Below, piece after piece: positions 39,165-43,865 of a stretch of DNA of 47,567 bases. Position 1 is the stretch's first letter. The number at the start of each line of letters is the position of its first letter. Under the pieces are notes generated by a model that worked only from the letters and a program-made list of their open reading frames with translations, searched no databases and was not told where the DNA came from. The DNA is taken from the NCBI GenBank assembly GCA_029253965.1, contig JAQWYM010000059.1, forward strand, positions 1 to 47,567, given 5' to 3'. The translations under genes were made by a program, and so were the position numbers. The DNA is from Gammaproteobacteria bacterium (lineage in GTDB: Bacteria; Pseudomonadota; Gammaproteobacteria; UBA4575).

Positions 39165-40205
39165 TTAAGGCTCCAGATTAAGGGATAGACTCTCGTTTTT
39201 CCCTAGGTCATTTATCCACGTGTTTAAAAGCTGTTGCGCTTCTTCAGTCAATGCTTTGGCCTTTCGTCCATGGTAGCGTGCCAATCGCAACTGCGAAGCC
39301 GGCACATTATAATCAATCAAATAGTCTAGTGCAGCAGGAACATCTTGTGGCCGATTACAGATTAATAACATATCACTGCCCGCCTCTAGAGCTTGCTCTA
39401 GGCGTTGCTCTATCGAACCCTGTGAGAGTGCACCTTGCATACTTAGATCATCACTAAAGATAACGCCTTGGAAAGATAGCTGCTGTCTTAGAACTTTTTG
39501 CAGCCAAATGGGAGACAGGCTTGCCGGCTTACTATCCACCGCCTCATAAATCACATGACTACTCATCACACCGGCTAACTGGTTAGCAATAAGCCGTTGA
39601 AATGGAATAATATCAGCATTCCAAATTTCAGCTTCCGAACGTGTATCAATCGACACTTCGGTATGTGTGTCTGCCTTGACACCACCGTGCCCAGGGAAGT
39701 GTTTTGCTACACTTTCCATACCGCCATCACGTAAACCTGATTGAAAGCTTATAGCCAAACGTGAGAGTGCATCAATATCACTGTGAAAGGCCCGATCACC
39801 AATGACCGTGCTCAGCCCATAATCAATATCCAGCACTGGTGCAAAGCTCAGATCAATACCAATATCACGCAGCTCAAAGGCGAGTTGCTGAGCAAAATAA
39901 TGACTTAACTGAACAGCCTTTGCCGCATCTTGGTCAAAGCTATGCCCCAGATTACGGACAGCAGGAAATGCAGTAAAACCATCGCGTAATCGTTGCACAC
40001 GCCCCCCCTCTTGATCGATAGCTACCAGTAAGCGTGGTGATTTAATGGCATGTATTTCAGCAATTAAATCCTTGAACTGGCTCTTATCAATGAGGTTACG
40101 TGTAAATAAAATAACACCACCGACAGCTGAGTGTTGTAACCAATCACGCTCCTTTGGAGTAATTTCAGTTCCTGCCAAGTCAATCATTAGTGGACCGATC
40201 GTCAT
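39165..40205 (-). CDS. nagZ: Beta-N-acetylhexosaminidase NagZ
   Basis: Glycoside hydrolase family 3 enzyme of cytoplasmic peptidoglycan recycling; removes GlcNAc from anhydro-MurNAc-peptides. Motifs are IGPLMIDLAGTEI, GGVILFTRN, VAIDQEGGRVQRL, the signature VAKHFPGHGGVKADTHTE (catalytic Asp-His pair), and the nucleophile region GVIFSDDLSMQGA. I use the ATG at 40205 (346 residues), since it fits the family start; a GTG at 40214 would add three residues. It leads the nagZ-mscS-hpt-mtnP operon. Confidence 0.96.
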   Translation of the reverse strand: MTIGPLMIDLAGTEITPKERDWLQHSAVGGVILFTRNLIDKSQFKDLIAEIHAIKSPRLLVAIDQEGGRVQRLRDGFTAFPAVRNLGHSFDQDAAKAVQLSHYFAQQLAFELRDIGIDLSFAPVLDIDYGLSTVIGDRAFHSDIDALSRLAISFQSGLRDGGMESVAKHFPGHGGVKADTHTEVSIDTRSEAEIWNADIIPFQRLIANQLAGVMSSHVIYEAVDSKPASLSPIWLQKVLRQQLSFQGVIFSDDLSMQGALSQGSIEQRLEQALEAGSDMLLICNRPQDVPAALDYLIDYNVPASQLRLARYHGRKAKALTEEAQQLLNTWINDLGKNESLSLNLEP

Positions 40206-40248
40206 AATACTCACTCTATGCTGTTGTCATGAATTTGAGTAGGCTGCC

Positions 40249-40268: not shown

Positions 40269-40354
40269 TTTCATATAAGTCTAATAATGCTACAACAGAA
40301 GACAGTTTTATATTAGTTTATTGCGAATACTAACTGCTAAACGGCGCTGAATTT

Positions 40355-40470
40355 AAAAAAGGGCACTGATTAGTGCCCAATGTAAGTGGAGTCTATGGAG
40401 AATAACAACACCTATGAACTAAATTGATGACACTATGTGTCATCATCATAGGAAATAAATGCAGCATTTA
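40355..40470 (-). ncRNA. Putative small RNA with own terminator (minus strand)
   Basis: No gene is open here, yet the region is strongly structured. On the minus strand there is first an extended hairpin (40411-40452): outer 7-base stem CCTATGA/TCATAGG and inner perfect 8-base stem GATGACAC/GTGTCATC. Then comes an unstructured, pyrimidine-rich linker containing TTCTCC and CTCC, and last a rho-independent terminator: perfect 7-base stem GGGCACT/AGTGCCC (40361-40378) followed by six T. No minus-strand gene lies upstream to need this terminator, since zapE runs away on the plus strand. A possible promoter (TTGTTT with TATGGC 16 bases on) lies near 40472-40502. The 5' end is a guess. Confidence 0.55.
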
Positions 40471-40495
40471 TGCCATAAATTTTTATGCCTATAAA
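40455..40495. repeat. Palindrome plus tandem operator-like repeats
   Basis: A perfect 17-base palindrome (ATAAATGC, A, GCATTTAT; 40455-40471) overlaps the first of two near-identical units, TTTATGCCATAAA (40467-40479) and TTTATGCCTATAAA (40482-40495), spaced 15 bases apart. Their position between the putative small RNA and zapE, at the expected promoter region, suggests binding sites for a regulator. Upstream of zapE, 40496-40654 contains only a short stem (TGTAG and CTACA near 40540-40555). Confidence 0.4.
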
Positions 40496-40654
40496 ACAAT
40501 GACTTAGAAAAAAATCGTCTTATCCAATCAGTTTAAGCTGTAGAAAATGCTACATATCAGCACAAATCATCTATGCTGCTACAGTATTTAGAAGATTAAG
40601 CTATGCACATTCCAGCCGCCATAAAGTAACAGCCAACACATTTATAAAACACCT

Positions 40655-41755
40655 ATGCCAAAGATTCGTTACCAACAAGACTTACAATCGGAAGAGTTCA
40701 ACCTCGATCCCGCTCAAATGATAGTAGTAGAGCATTTGCATGCGCTGGAGCAGGCCTTAATCAATCACCACGAAGGCAGTAACGGTATTGCTTCACGTGT
40801 CATGTCTCTATTCAGTAACAAGGAAAGCCCGAGCACAGCTGTTCGTGGCCTCTATATCTATGGCACGGTAGGCCGTGGTAAGACCTACCTCATGGATCTG
40901 TTTTATGACTGCTTACCCAGTGATAAAAAGATGCGCATGCATTTTCATCGATTCATGCATGAGATTCATCAGCGACTAAAAAACATCAAAAATGAAGAAG
41001 CTCCGCTGAAGTTAGTAGCTGCTCATTTTCGTAAACGTACACGTATACTTTGTTTGGATGAATTCTTTGTCGCCGATATTGCTGATGCCATGCTGCTATC
41101 TGGACTCTTGGCCGCTATGTTTGAGAGTGGCATTACCTTAGTCACCACCAGTAACTGCACGCCTGACGGACTCTATAAAGATGGTTTGCAACGCACGCGA
41201 TTTCTCCCTGCCATCGAATTGCTTAAACAAAACACCAATATCATCGAGCTCGGTGGTAGAACAGATCATCGCCTGCAGTTTTTACAGCAAGCAGACATTT
41301 ATCATTACCCATTAGATGCCAATGCTGAGCAGGTGATGTTAGAAAACTTCAATCATATTGCCCCTGATGCAGGTAAGGAAAACGAGGCACTAGAGATCGA
41401 AGATCGCCGAATTCAAAGTAAACGTAGTGCTGATGGTGTTGTCTGGTTTGAGTTTAATGACTTATGTAATGGACCTCGAAGTGCAGCAGACTACATTGAG
41501 ATTGCACGCTGCTTTAATACAGTATTAATTTCAAATCTCCCTGATTTAACCGACAATAATGATAGTGCCAGACGCTTTATCACAGCAATTGATGAATTCT
41601 ATGACCGTTCTGTGAAGTTGGTCATTTCAGCGCATGCAGAGGTAGACCAGCTCTACAGAGGCAAGAAACTTGCATTTGAGTTCCAACGAACCGTGAGTCG
41701 CTTAATCGAAATGAGATCCAAGGAATACTTAGCAAAAGAACATAAATCCCTGTGA
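40655..41755 (+). CDS. zapE: Cell-division protein ZapE / AFG1-like ATPase
   Basis: 366 residues, AFG1/LACE1-type P-loop ATPase (PF03969). Walker A is GLYIYGTVGRGKTYLMDLFY; MHFHRFMHEIHQRL, Walker B LCLDEFFVADIADAMLL, the sensor TSNCTPDGLYKDGLQRTRFLPAI and the C-terminal LISNLPDL and RFITAIDEFYDRSVKL are typical. In E. coli ZapE binds FtsZ late in division, notably under low oxygen. The mdh gene follows after 53 bases. Confidence 0.95.
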   Translation: MPKIRYQQDLQSEEFNLDPAQMIVVEHLHALEQALINHHEGSNGIASRVMSLFSNKESPSTAVRGLYIYGTVGRGKTYLMDLFYDCLPSDKKMRMHFHRFMHEIHQRLKNIKNEEAPLKLVAAHFRKRTRILCLDEFFVADIADAMLLSGLLAAMFESGITLVTTSNCTPDGLYKDGLQRTRFLPAIELLKQNTNIIELGGRTDHRLQFLQQADIYHYPLDANAEQVMLENFNHIAPDAGKENEALEIEDRRIQSKRSADGVVWFEFNDLCNGPRSAADYIEIARCFNTVLISNLPDLTDNNDSARRFITAIDEFYDRSVKLVISAHAEVDQLYRGKKLAFEFQRTVSRLIEMRSKEYLAKEHKSL

Positions 41756-42891: not shown

Positions 42892-43764
42892 TTATACTTT
42901 AGCAATCGTTACGCCAGCCCATTCTGTAACGAAGTCATTAATATATTCGGCAACCACATCAGGACGATCTTCCTGCACATAGTGACCTGCACGTTCAATC
43001 ACCTGAAAACGAACTGGACCGGCAATGGCTTTCTTTAAGCGAATGCCTGCCTCTACCGGCATCCATGCATCATGACGCGCCCAACAAACCATGGTAGGAC
43101 AGATTATTTTTGAGTGATCAACATTCATCGTCTCTTCATTTGTTGGTTCAGCACAGATTTTCACCAAACTTTTAAAGCCTAATAAATCTGGACCTCGCCC
43201 CCAAAACTGTAGATAATTTTGTTTCACATTCTTATCTGTGAAGGCCATTTTGTCATAGCTGCCGGTACGTAATAATCCAGGAAATGCAGCGGCTGCCTGT
43301 CCTAATCCCATCTGTAATGTTGCGTCATCAGCATCAACAAAGGCATTAAAGGCTTCAACTTCCAATACTGGCCAATAGTCGAATGTCACTGGGTTAATTA
43401 AAATTAATCGTGAAATATAGTCGCAGTATTTACTGGCGAAAATCTGGCAGGCACCACCACCATGATCATGTCCAACAAGGATGACTTTACCTTTTAAGTC
43501 GAGTGCATCAATAACACCACGAATAACTTCTGCTTGATTCGTTAAGGTATGTTTAAAGTCATCTAATGGCATATCTGATTGACCATAGCCAACCATATCC
43601 ATTGCCAAACAGGTATAGTCCTCTTTCAAATGTTCTTGCACATGTCGCCACAGACGCGCGTTGGTAGGAATACCATGCACCATCAGCAATGTTGTCTTAC
43701 CCGTACCCACTGCTTCTATATTAATAGTCAGTTCTTGTTGAGCAACTTTTATTAGCTGTTTCAT
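42892..43764 (-). CDS. Alpha/beta hydrolase with aspartate nucleophile
   Basis: 290 residues from the ATG at 43764, which has a strong ribosome-binding site (AAGGAG 9 bases upstream); an earlier in-frame ATG (43791) lacks one. The fold is clear: oxyanion motif HGIPTNARLW, nucleophile elbow VGHDHGGG (D100), acid D232 in WARHDAWMP and H261 in ERAGHYVQEDRPD. An aspartate nucleophile points to the epoxide hydrolase / haloalkane dehalogenase side of the superfamily rather than esterases with serine. The substrate is unknown. It is a single-gene unit with its own promoter gap (43765-43865). Confidence 0.88.
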   Translation of the reverse strand: MKQLIKVAQQELTINIEAVGTGKTTLLMVHGIPTNARLWRHVQEHLKEDYTCLAMDMVGYGQSDMPLDDFKHTLTNQAEVIRGVIDALDLKGKVILVGHDHGGGACQIFASKYCDYISRLILINPVTFDYWPVLEVEAFNAFVDADDATLQMGLGQAAAAFPGLLRTGSYDKMAFTDKNVKQNYLQFWGRGPDLLGFKSLVKICAEPTNEETMNVDHSKIICPTMVCWARHDAWMPVEAGIRLKKAIAGPVRFQVIERAGHYVQEDRPDVVAEYINDFVTEWAGVTIAKV

Positions 43765-43865
43765 TGTTATCCTCTCCTTGTAATTAATCATCTACTCTTT
43801 GTTAGATTGATTGAAAATTCCGTTCTGTATTAACCTCAAAATATTTTAAGACAAGCCTTTATACA

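Follow-up and report, generated by a model that had tools for sequence, protein, structure and literature searches.

Few small RNAs transcribed from sigma-54 promoters are known, and those that are, such as Qrr and GlmY/GlmZ, are central to signalling circuits. CrcZ and NrsZ are further small RNAs with promoters of this class. The enterobacterial GlmY/GlmZ RNAs are made from a sigma-54 promoter with a UAS and IHF (PMC6075780). The Qrr RNAs of the Vibrionaceae are small trans-acting RNAs that depend on sigma-54 and an activator protein of the bEBP type, sometimes on two different bEBPs (PMC10162802). Other small RNAs resemble the one described here in their open pyrimidine-rich stretches. The 'toxic small RNA' RF02278 of Betaproteobacteria contains CUCCUCC...GGAUUC followed by a terminator, and its CU-rich open stretches, complementary to ribosome-binding sites, are predicted to mask such sites in the Burkholderia RNAs (PMC5688073). 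The alphaproteobacterial anti-Shine-Dalgarno RNAs MmgR (RF00519, suhB/MmgR) and NfeR1 have open UCCUCC-type seeds, the CU-rich linker of NfeR1 acting as such a seed, and the known members of this kind are under nitrogen or stress control (PMC10746234).

We have analyzed a window of 47,567 nucleotides (the whole stretch of DNA under study), in which a small RNA of 95 nt is predicted on the minus strand, from 40449 to 40355, beginning 12 nt past a -12 promoter element and finishing at the end of a T run. Its downstream neighbour on the same strand is nagZ (beta-N-acetylhexosaminidase; 39165-40214, minus strand; NF003740, 420 bits), which starts about 150 bases from the element, and its divergent neighbour is zapE (40655-41755, plus strand; NF040713, 425 bits). 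The order mscS-type gene, nagZ, small RNA, zapE, malate dehydrogenase is also found in named records, all of which are uncultured gammaproteobacterial assemblies. The locus came to light because a reader working from the sequence alone questioned a terminator that had no gene to serve. This first-pass annotation proposed an undescribed small RNA gene of roughly 100-120 bases, with which the predicted length agrees. It was right that the window has no upstream minus-strand gene that the terminator could serve, but it did not take into account that nagZ follows the terminator on the minus strand.

The RNA would consist of a 5′ hairpin, an open linker and a terminator. The rho-independent terminator (40355-40378, minus strand) has a seven-pair stem, GGGCACTAATCAGTGCCC, followed by TTTTTT, and is present with its six T as first described; the stretch from 39.8 to 41 kb holds five terminator-like sites against 0.9 expected. 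The linker (40379-40414, minus strand) is pyrimidine-rich and contains GTTGTTATTCTCC, with the TTCTCC already remarked upon, and also GACTCC. The hairpin (40425-40445, minus strand) has nine pairs and a loop of ATA, TGATGACAC-ATA-GTGTCATCA. As written in the DNA, the flanking CCTATG/CATAGG (40452-40447/40416-40411) extends it to the 15 pairs originally claimed. That figure is probably overstated, since the predicted start at 40449 falls inside the outer six-pair stem, so that the outer part is probably not transcribed; when the 95-nt RNA is folded to minimum energy, the nine-pair hairpin alone survives. The stretch first noted, which holds all these parts, has a folding energy of −38.7 kcal mol-1, compared with −25.6 (sd 3.2) for shuffled sequences (z = −4.1), and none of 200 dinucleotide shuffles folded as well.

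Is the element conserved? The region upstream of zapE was read in all 19 genomes of the sample for the window's family, which covers six genera and is identical to the sample for the whole order. Fourteen of these genomes, from five of the six genera, carry the element in the interval that separates the divergently oriented zapE and nagZ: three in the genus of the window (g1), four in g2, five in g3, and one each in g4 and g5, including a diverged copy in g3 (G017). These 14 keep hairpin, linker, terminator and T run, so that the outcome which the first-pass annotation named as refuting, relatives without both stems and the T run, was not encountered. In every carrier whose neighbours were read the element points away from zapE and towards nagZ. 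It is absent from all five genomes of g6, where nagZ still adjoins zapE wherever the region was read. A covariance model built from six copies recovers, at E ≤ 0.01, 13 of these 14 and finds one copy per carrier genome; run with stricter filters over 369 genomes drawn from the class at large, it added no carrier, and the phage collection gave no match to the element. One further match, in G019 (84% over 44 bases), was rejected: it lies ahead of a different gene, has neither hairpin nor terminator, and reflects chance similarity of AT-rich DNA. The window copy is the weakest member of the family (model match 40448-40352, with 20.4 bits and a window-wide E of 0.05). Its kinship is taken from its place, promoter and linker and from blastn against congeners, which gave two matches at the same place with E of about 1e-9.

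Conserved intergenic DNA need not encode an RNA, and the element could be a terminator combined with regulatory sites of zapE or nagZ; intergenic DNA of this kind is AT-rich, and short inverted repeats are common in it. The pattern of substitution argues against this. Thirteen distinct copies were aligned by fitting them to the model, which biases the result towards the structure. Standard pairs fill 96% of cells, and seven of 14 pairs show changes on both sides. Cells with both-side changes number 23, compared with 8.3 in shuffled alignments (none of 500 as high), and sliding the pairing partner as a control lowered the paired cells to 35-63%. The bias is countered by the terminator arms, which visibly differ between genera and still pair (AGGGCACUC/GGGUGCCCU, GGCCGUCUU/AAGACGGCC and GGGCGCCU/AGGCGCCC). 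On the question posed by the proposed covariance check, compensatory changes preserve pairing both in the terminator and in the closing part of the hairpin. The foot of the hairpin, CAACA/UGUUG, is near-invariant in the family, and above it the stem has been remade from genus to genus. In the window the hairpin has diverged furthest: its stem is not that of the other copies, most of which close theirs with CAACA/UGUUG. Compensatory change in an oriented hairpin-linker-terminator, a linker of 24 bases near-invariant in most genera, a promoter at a fixed distance, and a terminator with no upstream gene to serve together make DNA without an RNA function an improbable explanation. The predicted length is 90-99 nt across the copies, with the same layout in the 13 other genomes. 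Judged by sequence comparison, we take the element to be a real, conserved and undescribed small RNA gene.

No Rfam family accommodates it. At the gathering cut-off Rfam gave no match in the window, and in evalue mode no family, GlmY/GlmZ and Qrr included, reached its cut-off at any of nine loci of the family. The best relative scored 32.5 bits against RF02278 (gathering cut-off 50), to which the window copy had no match, and the best score for RF00519 was 26.0 bits (gathering cut-off 41). The 5′ hairpin of RF02278 differs from the present one. NfeR1 differs in carrying three CCUCCUCCC motifs and in its control, with LsrB as activator and NtrC as repressor. Qrr RNAs show no sequence match, and unlike them the RNA described here is single copy and lacks a luxO-type neighbour. 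GlmY/GlmZ share a link to the cell wall, represented here by nagZ as neighbour gene, but differ in length, sequence and neighbours, and we know of no open CU-rich anti-Shine-Dalgarno linker in them.

The most informative part of the locus, which the sequence-only reading had missed, is a promoter of the sigma-54 type, TGGCATAAATGCTGC (40461-40475, minus strand). TGGC at -26 to -23, TGC at -14 to -12 and A at -19 are invariant in all 14 copies. The RNA start was placed from the position of this element, and the 12 nt between the -12 element and the start are likewise fixed in 14 of 14; the -24/-12 pattern also served as the anchor for comparing the copies, so this constancy should be read with caution. 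The pattern is not rare, with eight matches in the whole window where three are expected, so the evidence lies in its fixed place in 14 genomes and not in the sequence alone. In these genomes glnA has a promoter of like form, TGGCAC-TGC. In Salmonella the sigma-54 promoters of argT and glmY read TGGCATAAGACCTGC and TGGCACAATTACTGC (PMC3844500), the latter close to the promoter found here. The genome of the window encodes rpoN. An IHF-like site with one mismatch, TAAGTCATTGTTT (40494-40506, minus strand), lies at -57, a position common to other copies. Eight copies (the window, G002, G004, G005, G008, G009, G012 and G015) have such a word at -57 or -58, perfect in three; as shuffling gives a 15-38% chance of one per copy in the stretch scanned, only the common position counts. 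These features indicate that the gene is very probably sigma-54 dependent.

Because the next gene on the minus strand is nagZ, the main rival to an independent RNA is a cis-acting leader, in which the sigma-54 transcript would stop at the terminator unless a signal permitted read-through into nagZ, as in an attenuator or riboswitch. The element does lie upstream of nagZ on its strand in the carriers read, about 150 bases from its start in the window. However, no antiterminator was found: at most 3-6 contiguous bases upstream in the RNA are complementary to the 5′ arm of the terminator, and that arm changes between genera without a matching change in the upstream RNA. The g3 copies share a TACAAT box in the interval from the terminator to nagZ, suggesting that nagZ has its own promoter, and in g6 nagZ adjoins zapE without any element. 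Moreover, conservation is greatest in the linker, rather than in a pocket-like fold. We therefore favour an independent RNA, and consider a nagZ leader rather unlikely. Between the terminator and nagZ, AATAATGCTACAACAGAAGRCAGTTTTRTATTAGTTTATTGCG (window 40280-40325) is near-identical across three congeners, and may serve as a promoter for nagZ or as some other regulatory site.

The linker is the most conserved part of the RNA, reading GUUGUUAUUCUCGACUCCUCCUGG in most genera and GUUGUUAUUCUCCAUAGACUCC in the window; within the family, GTTGTTATTCTC is the stretch that varies least. Some copies have a short frame across the linker, for example ATG/GTG-TTG-TTA-TTC-TCN, as would be expected if it encoded a leader peptide or other very small protein. 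Yet neither start codon nor Shine-Dalgarno sequence is conserved, single-base insertions and early stops break the frames in other copies, third positions of the linker are as identical as the rest, and the paired stems covary; a coding function is very hard to credit.

By analogy with the CU-rich RNAs, action in trans through the linker is plausible. Near-perfect antisense targets of CCAGGAGGAGTCGAG (at most two mismatches) were not found in eight genomes; its matches outside the small RNA gene in these genomes numbered five, compared with three for the reversed control, and none resembled a ribosome-binding site before an ATG. In duplex energies the window linker showed no preference for ribosome-binding windows over gene interiors, and the family linker showed a weak one (84 genes; 10 of 200 shuffles as good). 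The target evidence being poor, the anti-Shine-Dalgarno step is one that we infer. The start of an alpha/beta hydrolase gene (window 42892-43791, minus strand; GGAGAGGATAACAATG) can pair over 11 bases with UUGUUAUUCUC of the small RNA. It was rejected as a target, as relatives keep just the Shine-Dalgarno sequence and lose the match beyond it. Hfq is encoded in 18 of the 19 family genomes, and was not found in the window's own assembly, which is 83% complete.

What might activate such a promoter? Upstream of the window copy lies a palindrome, TGTAGCATTTTCTACA (40539-40554, minus strand; centre -97), as a candidate activator site. Most copies have palindromes between -97 and -140, at about -97, -109, -120 and -140, steps of some 11 bp that are near helical turns. 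Their sequence is genus-specific, the types including TTGGCAA-N3-TTGCCA, TTGTCAC-N4-GTGCCAA and TGT-N10-ACA; the candidate sites thus vary between genera (L031-L044) while promoter and RNA are kept. They depart from the QseF (GlrR) consensus TGTN12ACA of GlmY/GlmZ, and no bEBP could be matched to them. The UAS of sigma-54 promoters usually lies 70-150 bp upstream (PMC3844500), and glmY employs a UAS together with IHF (PMC6075780); the positions of the palindromes and of the IHF-like site fit known sigma-54 promoters.

The genome of the window encodes two bEBPs, NtrC (with NtrB) and one orphan. Apart from NtrC, no bEBP is common to the carriers examined. NtrC was rejected as the activator: its sites, GCAC-N7-GTGC, are clear at glnA and were not found upstream of the small RNA, and four of the five genomes of g6, a genus without the RNA, encode NtrC as well. 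In most family genomes the region upstream of glnA (for example L123, L126, L133) has textbook NtrC double sites, GCACYNNNNTRGTGC, with a sigma-54 promoter; the sites are partly degenerate in several g3 copies. A single common activator other than NtrC was also discarded, as the second bEBP differs among the carriers examined. In g1 it is an orphan regulator, in G009 an orphan beside a transporter-type gene and in G005 PilR-like; G017 has none.

The orphan of the window's genus is a response-regulator bEBP of 462 aa. At its locus (G000 contig C13, L052:741-2129 and 2154-2258) the bEBP gene is followed, ahead of a small secreted pilin-like gene, by the sigma-54-like promoter TGGCACGAAGAATGC. 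The UAS of this promoter, TGTCACATAGTAGACA, is conserved in a congener as TGTCACATCTAGGACA (L153). The TGT-N10-ACA form is common to the g1 small RNA site TGTAGCATTTTCTACA and to these pilin-gene sites, a likeness that offers a lead connecting the orphan bEBP to the g1 small RNA. The family might then be a lineage-specific, sigma-54-controlled anti-Shine-Dalgarno RNA in which the activator site is exchanged between genera and the RNA body, the core promoter and the IHF site persist, a riboregulator rewired to different signals and perhaps answering, in g1, to the orphan bEBP. We offer this tentatively, as possible but on balance doubtful.

The likely explanation of the locus as a whole is an independent small RNA gene of a family outside Rfam, driven by sigma-54, a bEBP and IHF, whose 95-nt product represses targets through its linker, probably with Hfq. 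It draws on conservation, covariation, a -24/-12 element constant in position and distance, the presence of rpoN and the failure to find an antiterminator; transcription itself, the activator, dependence on Hfq, the targets and the direction of regulation are inferred. Under some signal a bEBP would bind the upstream palindromes, IHF would bend the DNA of the promoter region, and RNA polymerase with RpoN would start at about 40449. The product would be an RNA with a 5′ hairpin, an open CU-rich linker and a terminator with a U tail. The linker would pair with ribosome-binding sites of target messages, leading to repression, and Hfq would probably assist this pairing. Since the hallmarks of the promoter demand an activator protein, the RNA probably answers to a signal and regulates its targets by blocking their translation. 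The element supplies a defined predicted start site, a candidate activator region and a putative seed. If this reading is correct, it would add one more sigma-54 small RNA family, in a lineage represented here by metagenome assemblies only.
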